This document shows, piece after piece, positions 44,961-60,814 of a stretch of 64,000 nt of DNA. The notes below the pieces were generated by a model that saw only the letters and a list, made by a program, of their open reading frames with translations, did not search any database and had not been told where the DNA came from. Position 1 is the stretch's first letter, and each line of letters begins with the position of its first letter. The stretch covers positions 5,642,001-5,706,000 of the forward strand of contig NZ_CP108046.1 in NCBI RefSeq assembly GCF_041435115.1. Direction: 5' to 3'. This DNA comes from Streptomyces sp. NBC_00289. GTDB taxonomy: Bacteria; Actinomycetota; Actinomycetes; Streptomycetales; Streptomycetaceae. A program made the position numbers and the translations under genes.

Positions 44961-44975
44961 CTGACGACACGTCAG
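44961..44975. promoter_or_regulatory. operator site 1, CTGACGACACGTCAG
   Basis: A perfect CTGACG-N3-CGTCAG palindrome, 40 bp upstream of the acyl-CoA ligase start. It is one of six related sites in the 44.9-60.8 kb region and would block ligase transcription when bound. Confidence 0.8.
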
Positions 44976-45049
44976 ATCGTGCCGAGAGCGTAGGGCTCGC
45001 CGCCTTGTCGGTCCAGGGGTCCGGGAGTAGCGTCCCTGTGGCGCGGTAT

Positions 45050-45064
45050 CTGACGGGCCATCAG
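45050..45064. promoter_or_regulatory. operator site 2, CTGACGGGCCATCAG
   Basis: The palindrome has one base changed in the right arm, but its outer flanks extend the symmetry (TATCTGA and TCAGATA, 45047-45067). It lies 26 bp upstream of the amidohydrolase ATG and 89 bp from site 1, so each divergent gene has its own copy. Confidence 0.75.
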
Positions 45065-45090
45065 ATATGTATCTCCGGCGGAGGGGACCC

Positions 45091-46284
45091 ATGACCGAAC
45101 TGCCCCGCATCATCAGCGTCGACGACCACGTGATCGAGCCCGCGCACCTCTTCGAGACGTGGCTGCCGAGGAAGTACCGGGAGCGCGGACCGCAACCCCT
45201 CACCGCGGGCATCGGCGAACTCGCCTACGTCGCGGGCAAGTACCAGATCACGATGGACCCGGACGGTCCGCCCACGGACTGGTGGATCTACGAGGACCTG
45301 AAGTTCCCGTACAAGCGCAACATCGCCGCCGTCGGCTTCGACCGCGACGAGATGACCCTGGAGGGGATCACGCGCGCCGAGATGCGGCGCGGCTGCTGGG
45401 ACCCGAAGGAACGCCTGGCCGACATGGACCTCAACCACGTCGAGGCCTCCCTGTGCTTCCCGACCTTCCCCCGCTTCTGCGGACAGACCTTCGCCGAGGC
45501 GCACGACAAGGAGGTCGCGCTGGCCTGCGTGCGCGCCTACAACGACTGGATGGTCGACGAGTGGTGCGGTGACAGTGGCGGGCGGCTGATCCCGCTGTGC
45601 CTGATCCCGCTGTGGGACGTGGAGCTCGCGGTCGCGGAGATCCGGCGCAACGCCGCGCGCGGGGTGAAGGCGGTGACCTTCTCCGAGATCCCCACCTACC
45701 TCGGCCTGCCCTCCATCCACTCGGGCTACTGGGACCCCTTCTTCGCGGTCTGCCAGGAGACCGGGACCGTGGTGAACATGCACATCGGGTCGTCCTCGCA
45801 GATGCCGGCCGCCTCCCCGGACGCGCCGCCCGCCGTCCAGGCCTCGCTCTCCTTCAACAACGCGATGGCCTCGATGATGGACTTCCTCTTCAGCGGCGTC
45901 CTCGTGAAGTTCCCGCGCCTCAAACTGGCCTACTCCGAGGGGCAGATGGGCTGGATCCCGTACGCCCTGGAGCGCGCCGACGACGTGTGGGAGGAGCACC
46001 GGGCGTGGGGCGGGGTCCGAGACACGATCCCTGAGCCGCCCTCCACGTACTACTACCGGCAGATGTTCTGCTGCTTCTTCCGCGACAAGCACGGCGTGGC
46101 CTCGCTGGACGTCGTCGGGCGCGACAACGCCACCTTCGAGACCGACTACCCGCACGTCGACTCGACCTTCCCGCACACCAAGGAGGTCGCCCTCGACCAT
46201 GTGAAGGGCCTCGACGACGAGACGGTCCACAAGCTGATGCGCGGCAACGCCATCCGCATGCTGGAACTCGACCTGGACGACTAG
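45091..46284 (+). CDS. amidohydrolase-family protein (ACMSD-like)
   Basis: The 397-residue protein belongs to the amidohydrolase-2 / ACMSD group of metal-dependent hydrolases and decarboxylases. It shows the N-terminal SVDDHVIEPAH, the DMDLNHVEASLCFPTFPRFC segment, the metal-ligand His in VVNMHIGSSS and the C-terminal Asp in FETDYPHVDSTFP. Such enzymes often sit in actinobacterial acyl-CoA gene sets. ATG 45091 follows CGGAGGGG. Its stop shares a base with the next gene's GTG, forming an operon with two acyl-CoA dehydrogenases. Substrate unknown. Confidence 0.87.
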   Translation: MTELPRIISVDDHVIEPAHLFETWLPRKYRERGPQPLTAGIGELAYVAGKYQITMDPDGPPTDWWIYEDLKFPYKRNIAAVGFDRDEMTLEGITRAEMRRGCWDPKERLADMDLNHVEASLCFPTFPRFCGQTFAEAHDKEVALACVRAYNDWMVDEWCGDSGGRLIPLCLIPLWDVELAVAEIRRNAARGVKAVTFSEIPTYLGLPSIHSGYWDPFFAVCQETGTVVNMHIGSSSQMPAASPDAPPAVQASLSFNNAMASMMDFLFSGVLVKFPRLKLAYSEGQMGWIPYALERADDVWEEHRAWGGVRDTIPEPPSTYYYRQMFCCFFRDKHGVASLDVVGRDNATFETDYPHVDSTFPHTKEVALDHVKGLDDETVHKLMRGNAIRMLELDLDD

Positions 46285-47456
46285 TGGACCTCGCCCACAC
46301 GCCCGAGGAGGAGGAGTTCCGCGTCCGGTTGCGGGAGTGGCTGGCCAAGGTGCTGCCCGCGCTCCCGCCGAAACCGTCCCCCGACGACTGGCCCGCGCGC
46401 CGGGCCTACGACCTCGGCTGGCAGAGGATGCTCCACGACGCGGGGTACGCCGGTCTGCACTGGCCCGTCGACGCGGGCGGCCGGGGAGCGACCCCCACCC
46501 AGCACCTGATCTTTCTCGAGGAGACCGAGAAGGCGGGCGCGCCCTACGTCGGGGCCAACTTCGTCGGACTGCTGCACGCCGGCCCGACCATCGCGGCCGA
46601 GGGCACCGCCGCGCAACGGGCCCGCTGGCTGCCGCCCGTCCTGCGCGGCGAGGAGGTCTGGTGCCAGGGCTTCAGTGAACCGGACGCCGGGAGCGACCTC
46701 GCGGCGCTGCGCACCCGCGCGCGCAGGGACGGCGACCACTACGTGGTCAACGGGTCCAAGATCTGGACCTCGCACGCCGAAGTCGCCGACTGGTGCGAAC
46801 TGCTGGTGCGCACCGATCCCGACGCCCCCAGACACCGCGGGATCACCTGGCTGGCCATGCCGATGGACGCGCCCGGCATCACCGTACGGCCGCTCAGGAC
46901 CCTGGCCGGCTCGGCGGAGTTCGCCGAGGTGTTCCTCGACGACGTCCGGGTGCCGGTGGCGAACCGGGTCGGGGACGAGAACGACGGCTGGCGCGTCACG
47001 ATGGTGACGCTCTCCTTCGAGCGCGGCACGGCCTTCGTGGGCGAGGTCGTGGCGTGCCGCCGGGTGCTGGCCGAACTCGCGGTCGCCGCACGGCAGAACG
47101 GCCACTGGGACGATCCGGTGCTCCGGCGGCGACTGGGCAGGCTGAACGCCGAGTTCCGGGCGCTGTGGCGGCTGACGCAGTGGAACGTGAGCGAGGCGGA
47201 GGCGAGCGGCGGAGGGACGGGCGGCGGAGGCGTGCCCGGGGTGGGCGGCTCGGTCTTCAAGCTGAGGTACTCGCACGCCCGGCAGGAGCTGTACGACGCC
47301 GCCGCCGACGTGCTCGGACCCGACTCCCTCGACCTCGACCGGCCGTGGGTGCTCGACCGGCTGTCCGCACTGTCGTACACCATCGCGGCCGGCACCTCGC
47401 AGATCCAGCGGAACATCGTGGCCGAGCGCATCCTCGGCCTGCCGAAGGGACGGTGA
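46284..47456 (+). CDS. acyl-CoA dehydrogenase, first of an adjacent pair
   Basis: The 390-residue FAD enzyme starts at a GTG that shares a base with the upstream TAG. The beta-domain motif WCQGFSEPDAGSDLA, the KIWTSHAEVADWCE strand and the C-terminal AAGTSQIQRNIVAERILGLP are complete. Residues about 300-315 hold a Gly-rich loop (GGGTGGGGVPGVGGS) that looks like local repeat expansion. It forms a pair with the next gene, as in heterodimeric FadE complexes of steroid and terpenoid catabolism in actinobacteria. Confidence 0.9.
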   Translation: MDLAHTPEEEEFRVRLREWLAKVLPALPPKPSPDDWPARRAYDLGWQRMLHDAGYAGLHWPVDAGGRGATPTQHLIFLEETEKAGAPYVGANFVGLLHAGPTIAAEGTAAQRARWLPPVLRGEEVWCQGFSEPDAGSDLAALRTRARRDGDHYVVNGSKIWTSHAEVADWCELLVRTDPDAPRHRGITWLAMPMDAPGITVRPLRTLAGSAEFAEVFLDDVRVPVANRVGDENDGWRVTMVTLSFERGTAFVGEVVACRRVLAELAVAARQNGHWDDPVLRRRLGRLNAEFRALWRLTQWNVSEAEASGGGTGGGGVPGVGGSVFKLRYSHARQELYDAAADVLGPDSLDLDRPWVLDRLSALSYTIAAGTSQIQRNIVAERILGLPKGR

Positions 47457-48613
47457 CGGCGAGGATGAGATTCCGGCTCACCGACGACCAGCGGGCACTG
47501 CGGGACGGCGTACGGGGACTGCTGGCCCGCCGTTTCGACGGCGCGGCGCTGCGGACCGCGGCCGACGCTCCCGGCCTGGACCGGTCACTGTGGCGGGAGC
47601 TCGGCGCGGCCGGGTTCTTCGCGCTGCGGCTGCCGGAGCGGGACGGCGGGGTCGGACTCGGACTGCCGGAGACGGTGTTGGCCTTCGAGGAGGCGGGACG
47701 GGTCCTGCTGCCCGGACCGCTGGTGGCCACACACCTCGCGGCGGGGAAGGTGGCGGGCGCGGCCGGCGGGGAGACGGTCGTGACGGCCGTCCTCGGCGGG
47801 CTGGTGGAGTGGCTGGCGGGGGCGGACGTCGTCCAGGGGGACGCGGAGGGAGCCGTACCACTGCGGTCGGTGGATCCGCTGACTCCGGTGCATCGGGTTC
47901 CTCGGGTTCCCAAGTTTTCGCGAAGGGTTGCCGAGGCGGCGGGGGTGCCGGTGCCGCCCGCGGTGGCCGATGGGGCGGACGCGGTGTCCCGAGCCGGGGC
48001 GGCGGCGACTGATGCCGGCGGGGTGTCCGGAGCCGGGGCGGCGGCGACTGATGCCGGCGGGGTGTCCGGAGCCTGGGCGGTGACCGGTGCCGACGGGGTG
48101 TCCGGAGCCGGGGCGGCGGTGACCGGTGCCGGCGGGGTGTCCGGTGCCGGCGGGGTGTCCGGAGCCGGCGGGGTGTCCGAAGTCGACGTGGTGACCGGTG
48201 TCGACCCCGTCGCCGTGCTCCTCACCGCCGCCGAGCAGTTGGGCACGGCCGGCCGCACCTGTGAGCTGGCGGTGCAACACGCCCGGACCCGGGAACAGTT
48301 CGGGCGGCCGATCGGGGCGTTCCAGGCCGTCAAGCACCTGTGCGCCGGGATGCTCGTACGGACGGAGGTGGCCCGTGCCGCCGTCTACGCGGCAGCCGTC
48401 ACCGTGGAGCCGGCGGACATCGCGGCGGCCCGGCTGCTGGCCGACGAGGCCGCCGTGCGCGGCGCCCGTGACTGCCTCCAGGTGCACGGCGGAATGGGGT
48501 TCACCTGGGAGTCCGAAGTGCATCTGCATCTGAAGCGGGCCTGGGTCCGGGCACGGCGTTGCGGTGCGGTCACGGAGAGTGAAGAGCTGCTCGCGGCCGA
48601 TCTGCTGGCGTGA
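47453..48613 (+). CDS. acyl-CoA dehydrogenase with coding minisatellite, second of pair
   Basis: The 386-residue protein begins MRFRLTDDQRALRDGVRGLL after a GTG or ATG start (47453 or 47465) and ends with the C-terminal domain VQHARTREQFGRPIGAFQAV and LQVHGGMGFTWESEVHLHLK. The middle is abnormal: residues about 179-241 are tandem 13-residue units such as SGAGAAATDAGGV, from 39-bp and 18-bp DNA repeats (47987-48175). They lie where the short beta domain of this subfamily joins the C-terminal helices. The paired gene upstream likely supplies the intact active site. Confidence 0.88.
   Translation: MTARMRFRLTDDQRALRDGVRGLLARRFDGAALRTAADAPGLDRSLWRELGAAGFFALRLPERDGGVGLGLPETVLAFEEAGRVLLPGPLVATHLAAGKVAGAAGGETVVTAVLGGLVEWLAGADVVQGDAEGAVPLRSVDPLTPVHRVPRVPKFSRRVAEAAGVPVPPAVADGADAVSRAGAAATDAGGVSGAGAAATDAGGVSGAWAVTGADGVSGAGAAVTGAGGVSGAGGVSGAGGVSEVDVVTGVDPVAVLLTAAEQLGTAGRTCELAVQHARTREQFGRPIGAFQAVKHLCAGMLVRTEVARAAVYAAAVTVEPADIAAARLLADEAAVRGARDCLQVHGGMGFTWESEVHLHLKRAWVRARRCGAVTESEELLAADLLA
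47987..48175 (+). repeat. in-frame 39-bp/18-bp tandem repeat inside acyl-CoA dehydrogenase
   Basis: Units of 39, 39, 36, 39, 18 and 18 bp, all starting TCC(G/C)G and ending GGGGTG. They encode SRAGAAATDAGGV, SGAGAAATDAGGV, SGAWAVTGADGV, SGAGAAVTGAGGV, SGAGGV and SGAGGV. All unit lengths are multiples of three, so copy changes keep the frame. Confidence 0.9.
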
Positions 48614-49116
48614 GGAGCGCGGGGCCCGCCTGGTCTGCGGTGTCGGGGATCCGGCGGGAACGAATGTTGCGGATTGTGGCGTACCGGAATGACGGAGCGT
48701 CGATATCGGGTTGTGTCCTAGGCGTGACTCGTCACGTCCTGGAGTCGGCGGCGTGCTCCGGTACCTTGTGTGGGATGCGAGTGGTTCCGAGCACGAGCCA
48801 TGCCGGTGTCGCCTCCGAGGCGCCTCCGGATCCGGCGGTGCGCGCCGCTCCTCGCCCGGTGGGAGGGCCTGTGGCCCCCGCCTGTTCGACTCCCCGCAAC
48901 GAGCGTCGCACAGTATCCCGCACGGGTACTCCTTCGCGCTGGAATATGCCCGAAGCGCTTGTTGGGGTGACTGTACGTCAACCATGCTGTCTCGTAAGGG
49001 ACTCACGTTCAGTGACCCTGGCTCTGGCCGTTGTTCTGGTCATGCAAAAAATGGCTACGATCGTGGCCCTCGTGAGGCGCGAGGCTATGTGTCCGCCGGT
49101 TCGGATGGTGTGAGCG
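48614..49116. promoter_or_regulatory. 503-bp control region of the HATPase gene
   Basis: No gene is convincing; an open plus-strand frame runs through it, but its peptide looks like shadow sequence. CGTGAC-TC-GTCACG (48723-48736) is a perfect palindrome with GTGA-N4-TCAC outline, near the BldD consensus. A likely promoter near the gene is TTGTTC (49031-49036) and TACGAT (49056-49061), spaced 19 bp. Confidence 0.45.
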
Positions 49117-49626
49117 GTGCAGGTGCTCCAAGTGCAGCTGGAAGTCCGGCCCGACCCCGCTGAGGTGGGGCGAGCGCGGCGGTGGGCCCGCTCCCGGCTC
49201 GCCGGGTCCGGAATAGAGGCCGACGAACCACTCGCCGAGACCCTGATCCTGCTCGTCTCCGAACTGGTCACCAACGCCGTGGTGCACACCGGCTGTCCGG
49301 CCGTACTGCGTCTGTCCCTGCCCGGCGGGACGGAGGGACCGGCCACCGTACGCCTCGAAGTGGCCGACACCAGCGGCCGGGCCCCGGTGCCCCGGTGCGC
49401 GGACGGCGAGGAGACCGGCGGCCGTGGCCTCGCCCTCGTCGACGGCCTCGCCGACCGCTGGGGCTGGAGCCCCGAAGGGGCGGGCAAGCGCATCTGGTGC
49501 GAACTCGACCGCTGTACGCGGCCGCAGGACCCGGCCGCCGCCTACGGAAGCGGAGCGACGGCCTCGGCGACTTCGACCGCCTCGGCGGCTTCGGCGTACG
49601 AGGGGCTGGCGTTCGAGGCCGTCTAG
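49117..49626 (+). CDS. HATPase_c anti-sigma/regulatory kinase
   Basis: The 169-residue protein is a lone Bergerat-fold ATPase: N box LVSELVTNAVVHTG, G1 box LEVADTSGRAP and G2 box GGRGLALVDGLADRWGW. Streptomyces has many such RsbW/SpoIIAB-like proteins that bind a sigma factor or phosphorylate STAS antagonists. The last 35 residues are an Ala/Ser-rich tail with TASATSTASAASA. GTG 49117 was chosen. It sits inside the acyl-CoA gene region but is not obviously part of that pathway. Confidence 0.9.
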   Translation: MQVLQVQLEVRPDPAEVGRARRWARSRLAGSGIEADEPLAETLILLVSELVTNAVVHTGCPAVLRLSLPGGTEGPATVRLEVADTSGRAPVPRCADGEETGGRGLALVDGLADRWGWSPEGAGKRIWCELDRCTRPQDPAAAYGSGATASATSTASAASAYEGLAFEAV

Positions 49627-50214: not shown

Positions 50215-51150
50215 TCACAGAACGGCGACGGGTGCCACCGGGGTTCCGGTCGCGCCGACGAAGGGTTCGGGCATCGCCGACAGCAGGAACGCGTACCGGC
50301 CCTCTTGTCCACAGGCTGTGGACAACTTTTCGAGATTCCAGTTCTGGCCCTGTAGCATCCCCATCTCCACGAGGTCGAGCGCGTGCACGGGCAGCCACAA
50401 GTCGTCTATCTCGGGCGGAAATATCTCAAAGGTGAGCGTGTCGTTCGCGACCGCCGCGACGTCACGCGCGTGGAACCACTCCGGGGTGCCGATCGACAGC
50501 CCCGGTGACGGATAGCCGTACGCGTCCCTGTCGCCCGCGAGGTAGACCTGGATCTGCCCGGTCCGTACGAGCACGATGTCGCCGGCACGCACCCGTGTTC
50601 CGGCGAGTTCCTCGGCCGCCTCCAGGTCCTCCGTGGTGACGGCGTGGCCGCCGGTGAGCCGGTCCACGCCTCGCGCGCGTGCCACGTCGAGCAGCACCCC
50701 GCGCGAGACGATGTGCCGCGCCTTGTCGATGCCGCTGAACTCGGCGCCGCCGTGCGGGGTGATGGTGTCGGCCGGGCGGCCGTTGTAGAGCCGGCCCGAG
50801 TGCGAGACGTGGGTGAGCGCGTCCCAGTGGGTGGCGGCCTGCAGTCCCATGGTCACGGCGTCGTCGCTGCACGCCACGGTGCCGGGGCCGAAGATCTCCT
50901 GGTTGATCTGCACCATCGCGTGCAGGGGGTTGATCCGCCCCGGGATCATCCCGGTCTGCACGCCGTCCTGGCGGAGCGGGAGGGCGAGGGGGACGCGGCG
51001 GCCCGTCCGGACGCACGCGGCGGCCTCGCGGACGACCTCGTCGGTGATCAGGTTGAGGGTGCCGATCTCGTCGTCCGCCCCCCAACGCCCCCAGTTGTTG
51101 ACGCGCTTGGCGATGTCCTGGAACGCGGGATGGAGCGCTGGCGGCGACAT
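50215..51150 (-). CDS. cyclase-family / kynurenine formamidase-like hydrolase
   Basis: The 311-residue protein has the metal-binding signature HWDALTHVSHSG (variant of HxGTHxDxPxH) and the DIVLVRTGQ and WFHARDVAAVAND strands of the cyclase superfamily (PF04199). Relatives hydrolyse formamides, cyclic esters or related ring substrates, which fits an alicyclic or aromatic catabolic pathway. ATG 51150 is chosen because GGGGAGGACAG precedes it. It is divergent from the SDR gene with operator site 3 between them. Confidence 0.87.
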   Translation of the reverse strand: MSPPALHPAFQDIAKRVNNWGRWGADDEIGTLNLITDEVVREAAACVRTGRRVPLALPLRQDGVQTGMIPGRINPLHAMVQINQEIFGPGTVACSDDAVTMGLQAATHWDALTHVSHSGRLYNGRPADTITPHGGAEFSGIDKARHIVSRGVLLDVARARGVDRLTGGHAVTTEDLEAAEELAGTRVRAGDIVLVRTGQIQVYLAGDRDAYGYPSPGLSIGTPEWFHARDVAAVANDTLTFEIFPPEIDDLWLPVHALDLVEMGMLQGQNWNLEKLSTACGQEGRYAFLLSAMPEPFVGATGTPVAPVAVL

Positions 51151-51197
51151 CTGTCCTCCCCGGGGCTTGTCTCCGGCCGTCTGCCGGGACATAAAAT

Positions 51198-51212
51198 CTA
51201 ACGGTCCGTCAG
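51198..51212. promoter_or_regulatory. operator site 3, CTAACGGTCCGTCAG
   Basis: The fifteen-base site has one mismatch to CTGACG-N3-CGTCAG and TC...GA flanks (51197-51213). It lies 22 bp upstream of the SDR start and 48 bp from the cyclase ATG, so it can control both divergent genes. Confidence 0.75.
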
Positions 51213-51233: not shown

Positions 51234-52145
51234 GTGGGGAACTTCTTGGCAGGCAGGGTCGTCGCCGTGACCGGCGCCGGGCGGGGCATCGGCCGCGCGG
51301 TCGCGCTGGCCGCGGCGGCCGAGGGCGCGCGGGTCGTCGTCAACGACTACGGGGTGGCGGTGGACGGCGCGTCACCGACCAGCGAGGTCGCCGAGGCCGT
51401 CGTCAAGGAGATCGTGGCGGCGGGCGGGGACGCCGTCGCGGTCGCCGACGACGTCTCCACGATGGCGGGCGGGCAGCGCGTCGTGGACGTGGCGCTGTCG
51501 TCGTACGGACGGCTCGACGGAGTCGTGTGCGTGGCCGGGATCCTGCGCGAGCGGATGCTGTTCAACATGGCCGAGGAGGAGTGGGACCCGGTCGTGGCGA
51601 CGCACCTCAAGGGCACGTTCACCGTGTTCCGGGCCGCGTCGGCGGTGATGCGCACGCAGCGCGCGGGCACGTTGATCGGCTTCACCAGCGGCAACCACCA
51701 GGGGTCGGTGTCGCAGGCCAACTACAGCGCCGCGAAGGGCGGGATCATCTCGCTGGTGCGCAGTGCGGCGCTCGGCCTGCACAAGTACGGGGTCACCGCC
51801 AACGCGGTCGCGCCGGTCGCGCGGACCCGGATGTCGGCGAACGTTCCCATGGAACTCACCGAGATCGGGGAGCCGGAGGACGTGGCCGCGCTGGTCGTCT
51901 ACCTGCTGTCGGACCGGGCGCGGGAGGAGCGGATCACCGGCCAGGTGTACACGATCGCGGGTCCGAAGCTCGCGGTGTGGGCCCAGCCGAGGGAACTGCG
52001 CGCCGCGTACGCGGAGGGCCCCTGGACCCCGGAGCGGATCGCCGACTTCCTGCCGGGGACCGTGGGCGCGGATCCGATGCCGCTGCTGGAACGGGTGGAG
52101 GCGATGGAGCGGGCGGCACGCGAGGGGACGCGGCCGAACACCTAG
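51234..52145 (+). CDS. short-chain dehydrogenase/reductase
   Basis: The 303-residue SDR has the cofactor motif TGAGRGIGRAVAL, the catalytic Tyr-x-x-x-Lys in NYSAAKGGI and the Ser in FTSGNHQGS one strand before. It oxidises or reduces an alcohol/ketone with NAD(P). The C-terminal extension (about 55 residues after VYTIAGPKL) is longer than minimal SDRs and suits the 3-hydroxyacyl-CoA-type group. The GTG start is preceded by GGGAAGGGG. It is first in an operon with an acyl-CoA dehydrogenase and a zinc alcohol dehydrogenase. Confidence 0.93.
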   Translation: MGNFLAGRVVAVTGAGRGIGRAVALAAAAEGARVVVNDYGVAVDGASPTSEVAEAVVKEIVAAGGDAVAVADDVSTMAGGQRVVDVALSSYGRLDGVVCVAGILRERMLFNMAEEEWDPVVATHLKGTFTVFRAASAVMRTQRAGTLIGFTSGNHQGSVSQANYSAAKGGIISLVRSAALGLHKYGVTANAVAPVARTRMSANVPMELTEIGEPEDVAALVVYLLSDRAREERITGQVYTIAGPKLAVWAQPRELRAAYAEGPWTPERIADFLPGTVGADPMPLLERVEAMERAAREGTRPNT

Positions 52146-52217: not shown

Positions 52218-53357
52218 GTGGACTTCGGATTCACTCATGAGGACGAGACCTTCCGTGCGGAGGCGAGGACGTGGCTGGCCGCACACGCCGACCCCGACCA
52301 GGACCGCCGCACCTGGGAACGCACCCTCGGCAAGGCCGGCTGGATCGGCCTCGGCTGGCCGCGGGACGGCTACGGCAACCGCACCGCCACCCTCACCCAG
52401 CAGGTCGCCTGGGCCGAGGAGTACGCCCGCTCGCCCGCACCCCCACGCTCCGGCCACATCGGCGAGAACCTCCTCGCCCCGACCCTCCTCGCGCACGGCA
52501 CGGACGACCAACGGGCCCGCTTCCTGCCGCCGGTCGCCGCCGGCGAGGAACTCTGGTGCCAGGGCTACAGCGAACCGGGCGCCGGCTCCGACCTGGCCGG
52601 CGTGCGCACCACCGCCGTACGCGAACCGCAGGGGACCTGGCGCGTCACCGGGCAGAAGATCTGGACGTCGCTCGCCCACGAGGCGGACTGGTGCTTCGTG
52701 CTCGCCAGGACGGAACCCGGGTCGAGCCGCCACCACGGGCTCAGCTTCCTGCTCGTCCCCATGGACCAGCCCGGGCTCATTGACGTGCGGCCCATCCGGC
52801 AGCTGACGGGCACCAGCGACTTCAACGAGGTCTTCTTCGACGGCGCCCGCGCGGAGCATGTCGTGGGCGGCGAGGGTGCCGGCTGGCAGGTCGCGATGAG
52901 CCTGCTCGGCTTCGAACGCGGGGTCTCCACACTCGCCCAGCAGATCGGCTTCGCGCAGGAACTCGGACGGGTGGTGCGCACGGCCGTCGCGACGGGCGCG
53001 GTGCACGATCCCGTCGTACGGGACCGCATCGTCCGCCAGTGGGCCGAACTGCGCACGATGCGGTGGAACTCCCTGCGCACCCTGGGCGGTTCCGGCGACG
53101 CGGGCGCGCCCAGCGTGGCCAAGCTGTTGTGGGCCGGCTGGCACCAGCGGCTCGGTGAACTGGCGATGCAGGTGCGGGGGGCGACGGCGGGCGTCGGGCC
53201 GGTGGACTGGACGCCCTCGGCGCCGTACGAACTCGACACGTCGCAGCACCTGTTCCTCTTCTCCCGGGCCGACACGATCTACGGCGGCTCGGACCAGATC
53301 CAGCGCACGATCATCGCCGAGCGCGTGCTCGGCCTGCCGAGAGAACCCAGGGTCTGA
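52218..53357 (+). CDS. acyl-CoA dehydrogenase
   Basis: The 379-residue FAD enzyme has LWCQGYSEPGAGSDLAGVRT, KIWTSLAHEADWCFVLARTE, and the C-terminal FSRADTIYGGSDQIQRTIIA. It belongs to the same FadE-like subfamily as the genes at 46284 and 47453. It lies 72 bp after the SDR and is followed after 12 bp by the alcohol dehydrogenase. The GTG start is at 52218. Presumably it acts on an intermediate of the same CoA-thioester pathway. Confidence 0.93.
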   Translation: MDFGFTHEDETFRAEARTWLAAHADPDQDRRTWERTLGKAGWIGLGWPRDGYGNRTATLTQQVAWAEEYARSPAPPRSGHIGENLLAPTLLAHGTDDQRARFLPPVAAGEELWCQGYSEPGAGSDLAGVRTTAVREPQGTWRVTGQKIWTSLAHEADWCFVLARTEPGSSRHHGLSFLLVPMDQPGLIDVRPIRQLTGTSDFNEVFFDGARAEHVVGGEGAGWQVAMSLLGFERGVSTLAQQIGFAQELGRVVRTAVATGAVHDPVVRDRIVRQWAELRTMRWNSLRTLGGSGDAGAPSVAKLLWAGWHQRLGELAMQVRGATAGVGPVDWTPSAPYELDTSQHLFLFSRADTIYGGSDQIQRTIIAERVLGLPREPRV

Positions 53358-53369: not shown

Positions 53370-54419
53370 ATGCGAGGCGTGCTGTACGACGGGAAGCGGA
53401 TCGACGTCGTGGACGATCTGGAGGTGCGGGACCCGGGACCCGGTGAGGTGCAGGTCGCCATCGCGGCGGCCGGACTGTGCCACAGCGACCTGTCCGTGGT
53501 GGACGGCACCATACCTTTCCCGGTTCCCGTGGTGCTGGGCCATGAGGGTGCGGGTGTCGTCGAAGCAGTGGGTGTGGGCGTCACCCATGTGTCACCCGGC
53601 GACCACGTCGCCCTGTCCACGCTCGCGAGCTGCGGCACCTGCGCCGAGTGCGACCGTGGCCGGCCCACGATGTGCCGGAGGGCGATCGGGCGGCCGGGAC
53701 AGCCCTTCACCCGGGCCGGGCACCCGGTGTACCAGTTCGCCTCCAACTCGGCCTTCGCGGAACGCACGGTGGTCAAGGCGGTCCAGGCGGTGCGCATCGC
53801 GAAGGACATCCCGATGCCCTCCGCCGCGCTCATCGGCTGCGGAGTGCTGACCGGGGTGGGCGCCGTGCTCAACCGGGCGAAGGTGGACCGCGGGGACAGC
53901 GTGCTGGTGATCGGCACGGGCGGCATCGGGCTCAACGTCCTGCAGGGCGCGCGGATCGCGGGCGCGCTGCGGATCGTCGCCGTGGACGCGAATCCGGCGA
54001 AGGAGGCGGCGGCCCGGCAGTTCGGCGCGACCGACTTCCTGACCTCCGCCGAGGGCGTGCGGGACCTCCTGCCCACGGGCGTGGATCACGCCTTCGAGTG
54101 CGTCGGCCGCGTCGAGCTGATCCGCCAGGCGATCGACCTGCTTGACCGGCACGGCCAGGCGATCCTCCTCGGCGTCCCCCCGGCGACGGCCGAGGCCTCG
54201 TTCCTCGTCTCGTCCATGTACCTGGACAAGTCGATCCTGGGCTGCCGCTACGGCTCCTCCCGCCCCCAGCGCGACATCGCCCTGTACGCAGACCTGTACC
54301 GGCAGGGCCGCCTCCTCCTCGACGAGCTGGTCACCAGGACGTACCCGGTGGAGGACTTCGAGAAGGCGACAGCGGACGCGGAGGCGGGCCGGGTGGCCCG
54401 GGGGGTGCTGACGTTCTAG
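53370..54419 (+). CDS. zinc-dependent alcohol dehydrogenase
   Basis: The 349-residue medium-chain dehydrogenase has catalytic zinc ligands in GLCHSD, GHEGAG and GCGVLTG, and the structural zinc site CGTCAECDRGRPTMC. The NAD-binding loop is VIGTGGIGLNVLQGA. The arrangement is that of the class III-like mycobacterial/actinobacterial ADHs. It is the third gene of the operon, with GAGGGGG before ATG. A long hairpin overlapping its stop ends the operon. Confidence 0.93.
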   Translation: MRGVLYDGKRIDVVDDLEVRDPGPGEVQVAIAAAGLCHSDLSVVDGTIPFPVPVVLGHEGAGVVEAVGVGVTHVSPGDHVALSTLASCGTCAECDRGRPTMCRRAIGRPGQPFTRAGHPVYQFASNSAFAERTVVKAVQAVRIAKDIPMPSAALIGCGVLTGVGAVLNRAKVDRGDSVLVIGTGGIGLNVLQGARIAGALRIVAVDANPAKEAAARQFGATDFLTSAEGVRDLLPTGVDHAFECVGRVELIRQAIDLLDRHGQAILLGVPPATAEASFLVSSMYLDKSILGCRYGSSRPQRDIALYADLYRQGRLLLDELVTRTYPVEDFEKATADAEAGRVARGVLTF

Positions 54420-54473
54420 TGCCGCGGCAGGCGACGTTTGCGCGGCGGGGCGCACGTTGCCTGCCGGGGCACT
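54418..54473. terminator. imperfect long hairpin overlapping two convergent stop codons
   Basis: Arms of about 20 bp (left 54418-54437, right 54454-54473) hold AGTGCC and GGCAGGC pairing with GCCTGCC and GGCACT. The stem begins inside the alcohol dehydrogenase stop and ends in the AraC-type gene's stop, so it terminates both. Its right arm recurs at 58483-58503. Confidence 0.7.
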
Positions 54474-55527
54474 AGCCGTGCCGGGCGGCTCCGAGGCGCT
54501 GTGGGGTCCCGACGACCCCCGGTCCGCTGTCGCCGGTCCGGAAGGTGCGGCGGTAGGCGGTCGGGGTGACCCCGAGTGCCGTCTGCAGGTGCTGGCGCAT
54601 CGACTGGGCCGTGCCGAAGCCGGCGTCGCGGGCGATCTGGTCCACCGACAGGTCGGTGGATTCCAGCAGGTGGCGGGCCCGTTCCACGCGCTGCTGGGTG
54701 AGCCACTGGCCGGGGCTGACGCCGGTCTCCTCGCGGAAGCGGCGGGTGAAGGTGCGGACCGACATGGCCTCCTGCTCGGCCATGTCCCGCAGCTGGATCG
54801 GCTCGTGCAGACGGCCCAGCGCCCAGGCGCGGGCGGTCGTCGTGGTGGCCAGTTGCGGTTCGGGCAGCGGGCGGTGGATGTACTGCGCCTGCCCGCCGTC
54901 GCGGTGCGGCGGTACGACGGTGCGGCGGGCCACCTCGTTGGCGACGGCCGTGCCGTGGTCGCGGCGCACCATGTGCAGACACAGGTCGATCCCGGCCGCG
55001 ACGCCCGCCGAGGTCAGTACGTCGCCGTCGTCGATGAACAGGACGTCCGGATCGACCCTGATCCGTGGGAACAGCCGCTGGAAACGGTCGGCGTCGGCCC
55101 AGTGCGTGGCCGCGGGGCGGCCGTCGAGGTGCCCGGCGGCGGCCAGCACGTACCCGCCGGTGCAGATGGCGGTGAGCCGGGTGCCGGGCCGGATCCGGGC
55201 GAGGGCGGCGGCCAGTTCGGGGGTGAGGACTCCCTCCTCGTAGACCGGGCCGAGTTCGTACGAGGCCGGGACGACGACGGTGTCCGCGGTGGCCAGGGCC
55301 TCCGGCCCGTACCGGACGTCGATCGCGAAGTCGGCGTCCGTCTCGACCGAGCCCGGCGGGCGGATCGAGCAGGTGACGACCTCGTACAGGTGCCGACCCC
55401 GGGCGTCCTTGGGACGGCCGAAGATGCGGTGCGGGATGCCCAGTTCGAAGGGGAGGAGTCCGTCGAGGGCGAGGACGACGACGCGGTGCGGGCGGAAGCC
55501 GGTGGCCGGTTCGGATGCCGATTGCAT
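54472..55527 (-). CDS. GlxA-type AraC-family regulator
   Basis: The 351-residue protein joins an N-terminal DJ-1/PfpI-like domain (about 15-200, VVVLALDGLLPFELGIPHRI; CTGGYVLAAAG holds the nucleophile-elbow Cys) to a C-terminal double helix-turn-helix AraC domain (MSVRTFTRRFREETGVSPGQ, IARDAGFGTAQSMRQHLQTA). Such proteins activate catabolic genes. It is divergent from an MFS gene, its most likely target. Whether it also affects the acyl-CoA regulon is not visible. Confidence 0.9.
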   Translation of the reverse strand: MQSASEPATGFRPHRVVVLALDGLLPFELGIPHRIFGRPKDARGRHLYEVVTCSIRPPGSVETDADFAIDVRYGPEALATADTVVVPASYELGPVYEEGVLTPELAAALARIRPGTRLTAICTGGYVLAAAGHLDGRPAATHWADADRFQRLFPRIRVDPDVLFIDDGDVLTSAGVAAGIDLCLHMVRRDHGTAVANEVARRTVVPPHRDGGQAQYIHRPLPEPQLATTTTARAWALGRLHEPIQLRDMAEQEAMSVRTFTRRFREETGVSPGQWLTQQRVERARHLLESTDLSVDQIARDAGFGTAQSMRQHLQTALGVTPTAYRRTFRTGDSGPGVVGTPQRLGAARHG

Positions 55528-55567
55528 GGCCCGATCCTAACGAATGCTGTCCTTCGGGCCACTCGCT

Positions 55568-55580
55568 CGGACGGCGTCCG
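55568..55580. promoter_or_regulatory. CGGAC-GGC-GTCCG inverted repeat between AraC-type and MFS genes
   Basis: A perfect 5-3-5 inverted repeat in the 71-bp divergent gap, just before the MFS ribosome-binding site. It is a candidate binding site for the adjacent GlxA-type regulator. Confidence 0.35.
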
Positions 55581-55598
55581 AAAAGGAAGCTCTATGGC

Positions 55599-56915
55599 GT
55601 GACCCAGACAACCGACGCCGCGGCCGCCGCGACGGCACCCGAGCCGACCCGATCCCGTCGTATCCACCGCGCCTGGTTCGTCGCCGCCGTCACCTTCGTG
55701 ACGATCATCGGCGCCGCCGCCTTCCGTTCCCTGCCCGGGCTGCTCATCGACCCGCTGCACGAGGAGTTCGGCTGGTCGCACGGCACGATCGGGGCCGCGG
55801 TCTCCATCAACCTCGCGCTGTACGGACTCACCGCTCCCTTCGCGGCCGCGCTCATGGACCGCTTCGGCATCCGGCGGATCGTCGCCGGCGCCCTCACCGT
55901 GATCGCGATCGGTTCCGGCCTGACGGTCTGGATGACGGCGGCCTGGCAGCTGCTGCTGTGCTGGGGCCTGCTGGTCGGCCTCGGTTCCGGCTCGATGGCG
56001 CTCGCCTTCGCCGCGACGGTCACCAACCGCTGGTTCACCACGCGGCGCGGCCTGGTCACCGGCATCCTCACCGCCGCCTCCGCCTCCGGCCAGCTGATCT
56101 TCCTGCCGCTGCTGTCCTGGATGGTGGAGGCGCACGACTGGCGCCCGGCGGCCGTCACGGTGGCCCTCGCCGCCCTCGCGGTCGTCCCCTTCGTGTGGCT
56201 GCTGCTGCGCGACCATCCGGCCGACGTGGGCCTCGCGCCGTACGGTGCCGAGGAGTTCGTGCCCAAGCCCGAGCCGGTCACCGGTGCCGCCCGCCGCGCG
56301 GTCACCGTCCTGTTCAAGGCCGCCCGCACCGGCCCGTTCTGGCTGCTGGCGGGCACCTTCGCGATCTGCGGCGCCTCCACCAACGGCCTGGTCCAGACCC
56401 ACTTCGTGCCCGCCGCCCACGACCACGGGATGCCCGTCACCGCGGCGGCCTCGCTGCTCGCGGTCATCGGTGTGTTCGACGTGGTCGGCACGGTGGCCTC
56501 GGGCTGGTTCACCGACCGCTACGAACCGCGCCGGCTGCTCGCCGTCTACTACGCGCTGCGCGGCATCTCCCTGCTCTTCCTGCCGATGCTGCTCGCGCCG
56601 AGCGTGCGCCCGCCGATGCTCTTCTTCATCGTCTTCTACGGCCTCGACTGGGTCGCCACCGTCCCGCCGACCGTGGCGCTGTGCCGTGAGCAGTACGGCG
56701 AGGACAGCGCGATCGTCTTCGGCTGGGTCCTCGCCTCGCACCAGGTCGGCGCCGCGCTCGTGGCCTTCCTCGGCGGCGTGGTACGGGACGTCTTCGGGAC
56801 GTACGACATGATCTGGTACGCCTCCGGGGCGCTGTGCGCGGCGGCGGCACTGATGGCGCTGGTGATCCGGCGGCGCACGGTCCCGCCCGTGGGGCGACTC
56901 GCGGTGGCGGGCTGA
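55599..56915 (+). CDS. MFS transporter (monocarboxylate/oxalate-type)
   Basis: The 438-residue protein has 12 predicted helices, beginning with WFVAAVTFVTIIGAAAFRS. It carries the loop 2-3 motif MDRFGIRRIVAG and ATVTNRWFTTRRGLVTGILT, which is typical of the MCT/OFA-type carboxylate transporters. Import of an organic acid fits the catabolic neighbours. GTG 55599 follows AAAAGGAAG. It is divergent from the AraC-type regulator. Confidence 0.87.
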   Translation: MTQTTDAAAAATAPEPTRSRRIHRAWFVAAVTFVTIIGAAAFRSLPGLLIDPLHEEFGWSHGTIGAAVSINLALYGLTAPFAAALMDRFGIRRIVAGALTVIAIGSGLTVWMTAAWQLLLCWGLLVGLGSGSMALAFAATVTNRWFTTRRGLVTGILTAASASGQLIFLPLLSWMVEAHDWRPAAVTVALAALAVVPFVWLLLRDHPADVGLAPYGAEEFVPKPEPVTGAARRAVTVLFKAARTGPFWLLAGTFAICGASTNGLVQTHFVPAAHDHGMPVTAAASLLAVIGVFDVVGTVASGWFTDRYEPRRLLAVYYALRGISLLFLPMLLAPSVRPPMLFFIVFYGLDWVATVPPTVALCREQYGEDSAIVFGWVLASHQVGAALVAFLGGVVRDVFGTYDMIWYASGALCAAAALMALVIRRRTVPPVGRLAVAG

Positions 56916-56940
56916 GCAGACGGGCCGGTCGACGGGCCGG

Positions 56941-57549
56941 TCAGATGAAACGGCCCCTGTGGAACAGCAGGGGCCTCGCGTCCCCGGTGCCCGTGCCCAG
57001 CGCGTCCACCCGTCCCACCACGATCAGGTGGTCGCCGCCCGTGTGCACCGCGTGGATCGTGCAGTCGATCCACGCGAGCGCGCCCGAGAGGCGCGGGGAG
57101 CCCGACACGGGCGCCGCGTCGTAGGCGACGCCGGCGAACTTGTCGGTGCCGCTGACCGCGAAACCGCGGCACAGCTCGCCCTGGTGGGCGCCCAGGACGT
57201 TCACGCAGAAGGCGCCCGCGCGCGCGATGCGGGGCCAGGTCGCCGACGTACGGCCGACCATGAAGGCGACCAGGGGCGGATCGAGGGACAGGGAGGAGAA
57301 CGACTGGCAGGCGAAGCCGGCGGGACCCGCGGCGGCGTCCTCGCCGTCGGCGGCGGGTGCCGTGACCACGGTGACGCCGGTCGCGAAGGTTCCCAGTACC
57401 CGTCGGAACTCGGCCGGGGCGAGCGGCGCACGCTCGTCCGCGCGGACGCACCGCAGGTCCGGGCGCGGCAGCGGCTCCACCGGAGCGGGTGTGACCCCGG
57501 CCGACCTGAGGTAGCGGACGGCGGCTTCCGCTGTCCCTGCTTGTCCCAT
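56941..57549 (-). CDS. flavin reductase-like FMN-binding protein
   Basis: The 202-residue protein has the flavin reductase fold: RVLGTFATGVTVVTAPA, FACQSFSSLSLDPPLVAFMV, FCVNVLGAHQGELCRGFAVS and the terminal DHLIIVV-type strand DHLIVVGRVDALG. Such proteins supply reduced FMN to a monooxygenase. No monooxygenase is adjacent except the distant one at 62675. ATG 57549 has GGGGGA nearby; another ATG is at 57561. Operator site 4 lies just upstream. Confidence 0.88.
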   Translation of the reverse strand: MGQAGTAEAAVRYLRSAGVTPAPVEPLPRPDLRCVRADERAPLAPAEFRRVLGTFATGVTVVTAPAADGEDAAAGPAGFACQSFSSLSLDPPLVAFMVGRTSATWPRIARAGAFCVNVLGAHQGELCRGFAVSGTDKFAGVAYDAAPVSGSPRLSGALAWIDCTIHAVHTGGDHLIVVGRVDALGTGTGDARPLLFHRGRFI

Positions 57550-57566
57550 CACGTCCCCCATTGAAG

Positions 57567-57581
57567 CTGACGGGGCGTCAG
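57567..57581. promoter_or_regulatory. operator site 4, CTGACGGGGCGTCAG
   Basis: A perfect CTGACG-N3-CGTCAG palindrome between the hydratase stop and the flavin reductase start (18 bp upstream of the chosen ATG). It suggests the flavin reductase has its own controlled promoter inside the gene string. Confidence 0.8.
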
Positions 57582-57591
57582 ATGGGAAGGG

Positions 57592-58422
57592 TCAGCGGCC
57601 CCTGTACTCCGGGCTCCGGCGCTCCACGAAGCTCGCCACTCCCTCCCGCGCGTCCGCCGTCGTCATGTTGATCTCCTGCGCGGCCGCTTCGGCGGCGAAG
57701 GCGGCGGTGCGGTCGGTGTCGAGGGAGGCGTTGACGAGCTGCTTGGTCAGGGCGAGGGCCCGGGTCGGGCCGGCGGCCAGCCGCTCGGCCCAGGCACGTG
57801 CCGTCTTGTCCAGCTCCCCGTCCGCGAGGACGCGGTTGACGAGGCCGAGGCGTTCGGCGTCCGAGGCGGTGAGCGCGTCCCCGAAGAACATCAGCTCCTT
57901 CGCCCGCCGCGGGCCGATCAGCCGGGGCAGGAGGTAGGCGCCGCCGCCGTCCGGGACCAGTCCACGGCGCACGAACACCTCGATGAACCGCGCGGACTCC
58001 GCCGCGAGTACGAGGTCGCAGGCGAACGCGAGATGGGCACCGAGGCCCGCCGCCGTGCCGTTCACGGCGGCCACCACCGGCTTCTCGCAGTCGAGCACGG
58101 CGGCGATCAGGCGCTGGGCGCCGAGGCGGATGGTGCGGGCCACGTCACCGGGCGCCCCTTCCCCGACCCCGGAGGCACCACGCAGGTCCGCGCCCGCGCA
58201 GAAGCCGCGACCGCGTCCGGTGAGGACGACGGCCCGTACGTCCGGGTCGGCGGAGGCCTGCGAAAGCAGCAGGACGAGACGTTCACGCAGGTCGGGGGTG
58301 AGGGCGTTGAGGGCCTCGGGCCGGTTGAGAGTGATACGGGAGACGTGATTGTCAGTGGCCTGCTGTACCAATGAATCGACGGATTTTTCCGTCGCGACGG
58401 ACTTTTCGGGGGAGGAAGTCAT
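57592..58422 (-). CDS. enoyl-CoA hydratase/isomerase
   Basis: The 276-residue crotonase has the substrate strand RITLNRPEALNALTPDLRER, the oxyanion motif GRGFCAGADLRGA and the second loop AAVNGTAAGLGAHLAFACDL, followed by the Glu-containing EVFVRRGLVPDGGGAYLLPR. ATG 58422 has GGAG seven bases before it. The N-terminal 20 residues contain a small internal repeat (EKSVATEKSV). It lies downstream of the NDP-forming CoA ligase (76-bp gap) and upstream of the flavin reductase. Confidence 0.93.
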   Translation of the reverse strand: MTSSPEKSVATEKSVDSLVQQATDNHVSRITLNRPEALNALTPDLRERLVLLLSQASADPDVRAVVLTGRGRGFCAGADLRGASGVGEGAPGDVARTIRLGAQRLIAAVLDCEKPVVAAVNGTAAGLGAHLAFACDLVLAAESARFIEVFVRRGLVPDGGGAYLLPRLIGPRRAKELMFFGDALTASDAERLGLVNRVLADGELDKTARAWAERLAAGPTRALALTKQLVNASLDTDRTAAFAAEAAAQEINMTTADAREGVASFVERRSPEYRGR

Positions 58423-58482
58423 GGGGGTACTCCGCTTCTTGGCGCCACTGGTCATGACCTGGCCGTCGGCTGTGCTGGCACT

Positions 58483-58503
58483 GTTGCCTGTCGGGGCACT
58501 AGC
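58483..58503. repeat. 21-bp copy of the 54456-54476 element
   Basis: GTTGCCTGTCGGGGCACTAG plus C matches 54456-54476 at 20 of 21 bases. Both copies contain the TAG stop codon of a minus-strand gene. Here a full hairpin partner is not seen. Confidence 0.75.
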
Positions 58504-60742
58504 GCTGTTCGGGGCCCGGTCGGCACACCGCCAGCGCGTCCAGCGCCACCGCTCCCTGCCCTCTGGGCAGGACCATCAGCGGATTGATGTCGAGCTCCGC
58601 GAGGTCCTCGCCGAGTTCAAGGGCCATCCGCTCCACCCGCAGGACCACTTCGACGAGCGCGTCGAGATCCGCAGGGGGGCGTCCTCGCACCCCGTCGAGG
58701 AGCGCCCGCCCGCGCAGTTCGGCCAGCATGTCCCGCGCCTGCTCCTCACCGAAGGGCGGCACCCGCACGGCCGCGTCCCGCAGCACCTCCACGAGCACCC
58801 CGCCGAGGCCGACGGTCACGGTGGGCCCGAACAGCTCGTCATGGGTGACGCCGACGACCATCTCGACCCCCCGCTCCACCATCTGGCACACCAGGACGCC
58901 GTCCAGCGCGACACCCTCGTAGCGCGCGATGTCGGTCAGCTCGCGGTAGGCGTCGCGGACCTGGCTGGCCGAGGTCAACCCGATCTTCACCAGGCCCAGT
59001 TCGGTCTTGTGGGCGATCTGCGCGCCGGACGCCTTCATCACCACGGGGTAGCCCACCAGACCGGCCGCCCGTACGGCCGCCGCCGCGCTCGTCACCAACT
59101 GCTCGCGCGGCACCCGTATGCCGTACGCCCGCAGCAACTGCTTGGCCGCGTGCTCGCTCAGCTGCTGCCCGGGCCGCATCAGCGCCTGCGCCTTGCGGAA
59201 GGAGGGCGAGAGGGCGCGGGCCGCCTCGTCGAAGGGGGAGCGGTAGCCGGTCACGAAGCGGTGATGGCCGAGGTAGGCGCGGACGGCGGTGACGCAGTTC
59301 GCCGCGGTGCGGAAGGTGGCCACCCGCGAGGAGCCGAGCAGCACCTCGCGGTACGCCGGCTCGGTGCCGACCGGCGACCCCCACACCACGCAGACCAGCT
59401 TGTCCGTCCGCTCGGCCGCGTCCACCAGGTCCTGGACGAGCTTGTCGCTCAGCGGCGGGAAGGGTCCGGTGATCGGGCAGATCAGCACGCCCACCTCGGG
59501 GTCGTCGAGGATGGCGTCGATGATCTTCCGGCCGCGCCAGTCGCCGACCGGATGGCCGCCGTTGTCGACGGGGTTGGCCACGCTCAGGTACTCGGGTATC
59601 CACTGGTGCAGCGCCGCCTGCCGGTCCTGCGACAGCACCGGCAGGTTCAGTCCCGCCCCGGTCGCCAGGTCCGCGAAGTGCGCGCCCGTGCCGCCCGAGA
59701 TCGAATAGACGACGACCCCGTCGGCGCGGGGCGGCTTCGCCCGGGCCAGCAGGGCGCTGGTGTCCTGGAGTTCGTCGAGCCCGTCGACGCGGATCACGCC
59801 GTACTGCCGCATCGCCGCGTCCACCACCGCGTCCGCGCCGGTCAGTTTGCCGGTGTGTGAGGCGGCGGTGCGGGCGCCGGTCTCGGTGCGGCCGACCTTG
59901 ACGGCGACGACCGGCACCCGGCGCCGGGCGGCGCGGTCGGCGGCGAGCAGGAAGGAGCGGCCGTCCTTCAGTCCCTCGACGTAGCAGGCGATGGCGCCGA
60001 CCTCCGGCTGCTCGGCGAAGTAGGAGATGAAGTCGGCGGTCTCCAGATCGGCCTCGTTGCCGGTGGGCGCCCAGTGGGAGAGGCGGATGCCGAGTTCCTG
60101 GAGGGCGAAGACGGGCCGCCCCTGGTGCCCGGACTGGGTGATCAGGGCGATCGCGGGCCCGTCGAGGTCGTCCCGGAACCGCTCGAAGGCGTTGAGGTTG
60201 GTGTTGGGCCCCAGCAGCCGGGTCCCGGACCGTTTCACGGCGGCGGCGAGCCGGGTCTGGGCGGCCGCGCCCTCCTCGCCCGTCTCGGCGAAGCCGGCGG
60301 CGAAGACCACCGCGAATTTCACCTTGGCCTCGCCGAGTTCCTCGATCAGCGGGAGCGGGTCGGCAACCAGCAGTACGGCGAGATCGACCTGCTCGGGCAG
60401 GTCGGCGACGGAAGGGAGGCAGGGGATGCCGAAGACGGACGGGCGGCTCGGATGCACGGGGTGCAGCCGGGCTCCGACCCGCTCGGCCCAGGCGATCAGC
60501 TGCCGGGTGACACCGGTGTTGGGCCGCCCCTCGGCGTCCGAGGCGCCGACGACGGCAACGGATTCGGGCCGGAAGAGGCGGTCCAGATCAGGGACGTCGC
60601 AGTACAGCGGCCGACCGCTGACGTCGAGGTCGTCGACGTCGGCAGGTCTGCCGTGGACGGCGGGCCCGGGTTGCTCGCCACAGGCGATGACCCGGGCCCG
60701 GCGGGAGTCGGTGGTGAGAGTGCCGTGGGTTGATCCAAGCAT
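58499..60742 (-). CDS. NDP-forming acyl-CoA synthetase (fused alpha and beta parts)
   Basis: The 747-residue enzyme makes acyl-CoA with formation of ADP or GDP. It has a CoA-binding Rossmann domain at the N terminus (SVAVVGASDAEGRPNTG), a succinyl-CoA-synthetase-like middle with the phosphohistidine-type loop ASHTGKLTGAD, and a C-terminal ATP-grasp part (VVMKASGAQIAHKTELGLVK). Some family members are protein acetyltransferases, but no GNAT domain is fused here. ATG 60742 follows GGGCGGACAG. Two operator copies lie upstream. Confidence 0.9.
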   Translation of the reverse strand: MLGSTHGTLTTDSRRARVIACGEQPGPAVHGRPADVDDLDVSGRPLYCDVPDLDRLFRPESVAVVGASDAEGRPNTGVTRQLIAWAERVGARLHPVHPSRPSVFGIPCLPSVADLPEQVDLAVLLVADPLPLIEELGEAKVKFAVVFAAGFAETGEEGAAAQTRLAAAVKRSGTRLLGPNTNLNAFERFRDDLDGPAIALITQSGHQGRPVFALQELGIRLSHWAPTGNEADLETADFISYFAEQPEVGAIACYVEGLKDGRSFLLAADRAARRRVPVVAVKVGRTETGARTAASHTGKLTGADAVVDAAMRQYGVIRVDGLDELQDTSALLARAKPPRADGVVVYSISGGTGAHFADLATGAGLNLPVLSQDRQAALHQWIPEYLSVANPVDNGGHPVGDWRGRKIIDAILDDPEVGVLICPITGPFPPLSDKLVQDLVDAAERTDKLVCVVWGSPVGTEPAYREVLLGSSRVATFRTAANCVTAVRAYLGHHRFVTGYRSPFDEAARALSPSFRKAQALMRPGQQLSEHAAKQLLRAYGIRVPREQLVTSAAAAVRAAGLVGYPVVMKASGAQIAHKTELGLVKIGLTSASQVRDAYRELTDIARYEGVALDGVLVCQMVERGVEMVVGVTHDELFGPTVTVGLGGVLVEVLRDAAVRVPPFGEEQARDMLAELRGRALLDGVRGRPPADLDALVEVVLRVERMALELGEDLAELDINPLMVLPRGQGAVALDALAVCRPGPEQR

Positions 60743-60775
60743 CTGTCCGCCCGCTTTTTGTGTGACAGCCGATAA

Positions 60776-60814
60776 CTGACGCTCTGTCAGATTAACGAAC
60801 TGACGCCGCGTCAG
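60776..60814. promoter_or_regulatory. operator sites 5 and 6
   Basis: CTGACGCTCTGTCAG (60776-60790, one mismatch) and CTGACGCCGCGTCAG (60800-60814, perfect) are 24 bp apart centre to centre, about 2.3 helical turns. They lie just upstream of the NDP-forming acyl-CoA synthetase. A tandem arrangement suggests cooperative binding. Confidence 0.8.

Follow-up and report, generated by a model that had tools for sequence, protein, structure and literature searches.

Palindromic sites in the promoters of acyl-CoA genes

The 64,000-nucleotide stretch investigated in this study (C1:5642001-5706000 of an 11.0-Mb Streptomyces genome, in the following termed the window) harbors six copies of the palindrome CTGACG-N3-CGTCAG, which we propose to act as operator of a TetR-type repressor containing a PF19352 domain. 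In a motif scan, which reports these sites without strand, a perfect copy at 44961..44975 is found upstream of the gene of an AMP-binding acyl-CoA ligase (43368..44921, minus strand; Pfam PF00501), and a copy with one mismatch at 45050..45064 precedes the gene of a metal-dependent hydrolase of the Amidohydro_2 type (45091..46284, plus strand; Pfam PF04909). The latter probably forms an operon with the genes of two acyl-CoA dehydrogenases (46284..47456 and 47453..48613, both plus strand), the first of which starts at the last base of the hydrolase gene. Another one-mismatch copy at 51198..51212 is located between the divergent genes of a putative cyclase (50215..51150, minus strand; PF04199) and a short-chain dehydrogenase (SDR; 51234..52145, plus strand), with genes of an acyl-CoA dehydrogenase (52218..53357, plus strand) and a zinc alcohol dehydrogenase (53370..54419, plus strand) residing downstream of the SDR; all these dehydrogenases were assigned by Pfam scan. 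A second perfect copy at 57567..57581 is situated upstream of a flavin reductase gene (56941..57561, minus strand; PF01613, scanned as 56941-57480), where the alternative ATG at 57561 would place the site about 13 bp from the start, and whose product remains below the NCBIfam cut-off for HsaB (190.6 versus 230 bits). Finally, a pair of sites 24 bp apart, the first with one mismatch (60776..60790) and the second perfect (60800..60814), lies upstream of the gene of an NDP-forming acyl-CoA ligase (58499..60742, minus strand; PF13549/PF13607/PF13380). Both ligases, the hydrolase, the cyclase, the SDR and the flavin reductase are thus predicted targets. The same cluster of acyl-CoA genes contains, on the minus strand, the gene of an AraC-type regulator with a DJ-1/PfpI domain (54472-55527).

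Our rescan recovered all six sites at the positions and with the mismatches listed in the first-pass annotation of this DNA. At up to one mismatch, we confirm its assertion that their number far exceeds chance, with six sites compared to 0.46 +/- 0.59 expected from 100 dinucleotide shuffles (maximum 2; 0/100 reaching 6); at up to two mismatches this no longer applies, as nine sites were seen and 8.38 expected. Since this relaxed threshold shows no excess, the signal is confined to near-perfect sites, and the two-mismatch matches in the window were rejected. All six sites are intergenic, and their centers are separated from called gene starts by 29-93 bp, with gene calls originating from a home-made codon-score caller and distances possibly off by one start codon.

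In the 464 kb surrounding the window, the palindrome with a spacer of three occurs 18 times (seven perfect, 11 with one mismatch), whereas spacers of 0-2 and 4-10 yield 0-5 sites each, none of them perfect. Fifteen of the 18 sites are grouped in a single 73-kb island (C1:5686961-5759718), where all 15 are intergenic though 85% of the sequence is coding (2.7e-13 by position alone), and the Poisson chance of finding at least 15 sites in a stretch of this length is 6e-18, with the bounds of the island set post hoc. In light of the shuffles, the spacer controls and the clustering in intergenic parts of the island, a chance origin was rejected. The extended consensus reads ATCTGACGG-N-CCGTCAGAT, with an A at position -2 in 87% of island half-sites and 80% of all Streptomyces half-sites, and paired sites were found in five promoter regions at distances of 24, 27, 63, 73 and 89 bp. 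The island also contains a transposase gene (DDE_Tnp_ISAZ013) and a gene of the PemK-like toxin family (L024:4865-6713).

At the level of the whole genome, 154 sites with up to one mismatch contrast with 45 for the reversed control, and 12 perfect sites with three. Of the 12 perfect sites, ten were viewed in stretches of at least 14 kb and proved to be intergenic; those at 1111723 and 6695138, which were viewed in 3-kb loci only, are not covered by a called gene but crossed by long open frames, and are located 269 and 160 bp from gene starts. Of the 142 one-mismatch sites, many are probably background, since among three inspected (L013-L015) one is intragenic and all three lack a called start in the 300 bp downstream.

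The PF19352 regulator and its co-occurrence with the site

The gene of the PF19352 TetR is found at C1:5723240-5723875 on the minus strand (81240-81875 on the scale of the window), thus 17 kb beyond the end of the window, amid the sites of the island and about 20 kb from those in the window. This location is in line with the prediction of a regulator encoded outside the window that would be preceded by the same motif, which is found here with two mismatches and in other families with none or one. A residue pattern for TetR genes had overlooked at least one apparent TetR gene beyond the island. We therefore subjected 43 of the island's 60 called genes to a Pfam scan and assessed the remaining 17 solely from their initial residues. 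Among the 43, no protein other than the PF19352 TetR has a TetR_N domain. It is also the only PF19352 protein in the genome (243.5 bits) and it contains the TetR_N helix-turn-helix PF00440 (26.9 bits, cut-off 24), while its predicted model (pLDDT 91.2), with EthR as nearest solved fold (TM about 0.8), shows the all-helical ligand-binding domain of the TetR fold. Membership in the SlmA (NCBIfam NF007015, 29.3 bits versus a cut-off of 120) and FabR families (a weak NCBIfam match far below cut-off) was rejected, and a relation to KstR over the full length was not found, with only residues 13-59 matching 5cw8 (E 0.19).

On one side, the regulator is flanked by a gene pair encoding an acyl-CoA dehydrogenase and an F420-type oxidoreductase, on the other by a KbpA equivalog (440 bits versus a cut-off of 250), which is followed by a Ser/Thr kinase and, about 9 kb further on, an AfsR-like protein. 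The regulator gene is divergent from kbpA (L024:17240-18741), and both reside within 2 kb of each other in 77 of 80 Streptomyces loci; the site at the regulator start may also influence kbpA and thereby AfsK signalling. This site spans an in-frame ATG located twelve bases 5' of the GTG, and this ATG is the likelier start, since the GTG is replaced by GTA or GTT in 10 of 28 other loci of the genus. As far as the sequence tells, the regulator would thus carry a palindromic operator in its own promoter.

The conservation of this arrangement was analyzed in 80 Streptomyces loci encoding TetR orthologues of 92-96% identity, and it is these close relatives of the regulator that identify the own genome as Streptomyces. 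The loci contain 284 spacer-3 sites with up to one mismatch, 51 of which are perfect, compared to 1-11 sites, none perfect, for spacers of 0-2 and 4-7. Although 82.5% of the sequence is coding, 259 of the 284 sites are located between 60 bp inside and 300 bp before a gene start, with four inside genes and 21 elsewhere. Upstream of the regulator, CTGACGnCATGACAG, where the spacer base n is G, A or T, is found exactly in 79 of the 80 loci and with one change in the other; in total, 108 promoters were compared, 28 of which had been selected via the motif, and the unselected 80 were therefore counted separately. Predicted targets kept within 10 kb of the regulator include a thiolase (g0204, 63/80 loci), an acyl-CoA dehydrogenase (g0205, 65/80), an Ltp-like thiolase (g0212, 51/80), a FadD3-type ligase (g0213, 48/80) and a DoxX-like gene (g0193, 45/80), with counts lowered by short contigs.

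In other actinomycete families, orthologues share 49-54% identity, and a site with up to one mismatch is found upstream of the regulator in all nine cases in family f16, in all four fetched in f14 and in the single one in f12. It is located 13 to 50 bp before the conserved region of the protein in f12 and f14, while the nearest site is 231 to 285 bp away in f16, where the open frame begins further upstream. Neighboring genes with a site encode acyl-CoA dehydrogenases in f12 and f14, and LLM oxidoreductases and an aldehyde dehydrogenase in f16. The recognition segment GTS-ATFYQYF is invariant in 20 of 20 aligned orthologues.

For a comparison of site numbers, 296 actinomycete genomes were divided into 31 of the own genus, 15 others with a PF19352 match of E <1e-40, five of family f13 and the remaining 245, which include PF19352 matches weaker than E 1e-40. 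The regulator is present in all 31 Streptomyces genomes, which contain 338 perfect sites against 14 for the control, while 110 (median 6) were found in the 15 others and 171 (at most 5 per genome) in the 245. The difference between the latter two groups, with own-genus and f13 genomes excluded, is reflected in a one-sided Mann-Whitney p of 1.7e-11 that is uncorrected for kinship. Within f14, genomes with the regulator gene contain 14, 14, 13, 14 and 7 perfect sites and those without it 0, 0 and 1. Across the 296 genomes, the number of perfect sites follows the presence of the orthologue, with exceptions, and this co-conservation is as direct an outcome of our computations as the site itself, its location and the classes of its targets. 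Two of the most divergent own-genus copies, in G213 and G254, retain the TetR-promoter form of the site, with one and zero perfect sites genome-wide.

Predicted regulon and alternative explanations

The scope of the regulon is illustrated by the A/T-flanked pattern WCTGACN5GTCAGW, which has 12 matches in the own genome and none for the control. Four are inside the island, and six of the eight outside are no more than 100 bp away from a called start. These six precede genes of a fusion of ChsH2 and dehydratase type followed by a MaoC gene, a ChsH2-like protein, an LLM oxidoreductase, a PNPOx-like protein, an enoyl-CoA hydratase (opposite a ligase recognized by eye only) and a ferredoxin-type reductase. 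One match, at 8666753, is intragenic, and for another, on contig C2, any called gene is more than 250 bp away. The five perfect sites outside the island comprise this C2 match, the two at 1111723 and 6695138, and two more; of these, those at 8331846 and 3424046, the latter before a second LLM gene, face targets of the same kind. A scan of the genome had been suggested as a check of the first-pass proposal of an acyl-CoA regulon, and it revealed the cluster before acyl-CoA genes with further members elsewhere; the opposite outcome, a motif equally common in coding regions, did not materialize, with only 1 of the 12 A/T-flanked matches being intragenic, and overall the proposal is supported.

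A similar picture emerges in S. violaceoruber, a close relative of S. coelicolor, where the pattern has 13 matches (2 for the control). Of eight inspected, six are located 30-87 bp before starts, one is intragenic and one near no start, and among the six, SDR, LLM, DoxX-like, reductase and PNPOx-like genes resemble own-genome targets as judged by eye. The target classes comprise acyl-CoA ligases and dehydrogenases, ChsH2/Ltp-type proteins, SDRs, LLM/F420 and flavin oxidoreductases, and amidohydrolases. The solved relatives of the Ltp/ChsH2-type targets (the Ltp/ChsH2 complex 6OK1, E 7e-98 and 2e-18) and of a target acyl-CoA dehydrogenase (Tcur3481, 6WY8, E 1.5e-30) are enzymes of the steroid side chain, and such relatives were obtained for three of four targets tested. 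The FadD3-type ligase (NF005801, 784.7 bits, cut-off 657) is preceded by two one-mismatch sites 27 bp apart. Its best PDB relatives, however, are 4-coumarate ligases and a fatty-acyl-CoA synthase/feruloyl-CoA synthetase, so that an aryl-CoA may also serve as effector. In an f14 genome (L226), the regulator resides within 3 kb of homologues of chains A and B of 6CO6 (E 3e-95 and 7e-73), the two subunits of IpdAB, and f12 shows the same neighbors by eye only. In three of four fetched f14 loci, the site precedes a like enoyl-CoA hydratase gene by 18-42 bp, and in L226 this gene is followed by the ipdAB homologues. Judged by these relatives, the targets point to cyclic, steroid- or terpenoid-like acids.

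Collectively, we consider the palindrome as operator of an autoregulated PF19352 TetR repressor of an acyl-CoA regulon, which would be relieved by the CoA thioester of a cyclic acid, and assign a probability of about 0.78 to this interpretation. Binding, repression and ligand are what we infer from the described features: the regulator would bind operators of the form ATCTGACGG-N-CCGTCAGAT, it would repress itself via an operator covering its own start codon, together with a scattered regulon of acyl-CoA, ChsH2-Ltp, SDR, LLM-F420, flavin and amidohydrolase genes, and it would probably be released by the CoA thioester of a steroid- or terpenoid-like acid made by a target ligase.

Several observations weigh against this assignment. 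The conservation of the site upstream of the regulator is by itself weak evidence, since in Streptomyces the site shows two mismatches, overlaps with coding letters from the in-frame ATG and is surrounded by equally conserved bases, and the site is missing in one of 29 further loci of the genus (L142). Eight of the 31 own-genus genomes contain only 0-5 perfect sites despite the presence of the regulator, and no site was found in two genomes with middling PF19352 matches (G019, E 5.6e-24; G027, E 8.8e-34, with internal stop). Of the four orthologue promoters in f13, only one contains a site with up to one mismatch, at -137. Finally, the own-genome IpdA homologue (L288, C1:7496610-7497428), which is 62% identical to the f14 copy and whose neighbors resemble IpdB and enoyl-CoA hydratase, has no operator nearby, and ipdAB was thus rejected as Streptomyces target.

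A further observation concerns the 245 genomes without a strong PF19352 match, where perfect sites are still three times as frequent as the control (171 versus 56), suggesting that some other factor may use or favor the palindrome. Such a factor, another TetR or a FadR-type protein, might also bind the sites in Streptomyces, with the PF19352 TetR being just one of its targets, as a site in front of its gene demonstrates that the TetR is regulated, not what it regulates. We regard this as rather unlikely in light of the presence of sites upstream of the regulator in four families, the correspondence of site number with its presence, the invariance of its recognition segment and the lack of another TetR_N protein among the scanned island genes. 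By sequence comparison, the link between the PF19352 TetR and the site is strong.

A different behavior is observed in f13, where all five genomes contain many perfect copies (109, 113, 119, 135 and 218, against 0-1 for the control). In the 5.5-Mb chromosome of G012, 18 of its 135 copies fall in one 250-kb bin and 0-9 in others, and in 1.185 Mb picked partly around sites (L192-L211, L248-L287), 26 of 58 copies are within coding sequence, while 15 overlap one stop codon, six overlap two and 11 are found elsewhere. In some copies, the stop codons of converging genes are located inside both arms. GC skew gave no signal for origin or terminus in G012. The f13 orthologue has kept the recognition segment, while its ligand domain has diverged and is somewhat shorter. 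SlmA is a chromosome-wide DNA-binding protein in enterobacteria, and a comparable conversion of a metabolic repressor, with its operator multiplied into a chromosome-wide element, appears highly doubtful for f13, as the flanking A is missing from most half-sites (present in 13 of 48 in a sample of 24 sites). The same abundance, in G012 often over paired stop codons and within coding sequence, could also indicate that the palindrome is generally a short dispersed repeat or terminator hairpin and not an operator, which is very improbable for Streptomyces, where sites are found upstream of starts, often between divergent genes, and carry the flanking A in 80-87% of half-sites. Control by the AraC-type regulator located among the window genes was judged the most unlikely, since AraC proteins usually read direct half-site repeats whereas the palindrome is exactly two-fold, the island spans 73 kb and the motif tracks the TetR gene across families.

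Relation to known regulators

A site or regulon for this regulator was not found in the open literature, where few subscription journals were covered, and a search with the letters of the motif returned nothing relevant by title. SAV3818, a TetR with a reported positive effect on antibiotic yield, may be the S. avermitilis orthologue. Sco4385 is, like the PF19352 TetR, a Streptomyces TetR near acyl-CoA genes, in this case of a 4-coumarate-CoA ligase and an enoyl-CoA hydratase (PMC12093943). It differs in its published 23-bp consensus, which was derived from clusters foreign to the host and for which the authors found no more than six genomic matches, each with two mismatches and within coding sequence.

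The position of our regulator next to kbpA and a kinase corresponds to that of SCO4421, a TetR family regulator of S. coelicolor near afsK (SCO4423), which is expressed in spores, upregulated in development and lower in a whiA mutant (PMC3878966). By position, and by the 92% identity of the S. violaceoruber copy to the own TetR, the latter is the probable orthologue of SCO4421. In the accessible text of PMC3878966, the single paper found to name SCO4421 among 5.39 million open ones, a deletion strain showed no detected phenotype and the function was called unclear; that text gives no site or regulon, whereas both are predicted here. A conserved regulator, found in 31 of 31 genomes of the genus and in 77 of 80 loci next to kbpA with afsK close by, thus gains a first testable set of target genes and a predicted site. 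For a study of the deletion strain, the regulon suggests cyclic acids, steroids and terpenoids as substrates and acyl-CoA and F420-type genes as readout, it offers a sensor/operator pair for acyl-CoA intermediates and it hints at a possible link of catabolism to sporulation.

EthR of M. tuberculosis shares the closest fold with the PF19352 TetR at 18% sequence identity and is its best PDB sequence match, over the helix-turn-helix part only (E 6e-6, among the best 60 of 75 matches). EthR governs an adjacent monooxygenase gene, in contrast to the scattered acyl-CoA regulon described here. KstR2, which is not named among the same best 60 of 75 matches, has a CAAG/CTTG palindrome as operator instead of CTGACG-N3-CGTCAG, and a further difference concerns the Streptomyces ipdA, which is not under the operator. 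In mycobacteria and rhodococci, KstR2 controls a regulon for steroid-ring acids with FadD3, IpdAB and EchA20 and responds to HIP-CoA (PMC5380842). The PF19352 TetR resembles this system in the proximity of the f14 orthologue to IpdAB homologues and in the FadD3-type ligase under its own predicted operator, and by analogy with KstR2 its effector is probably a CoA thioester.

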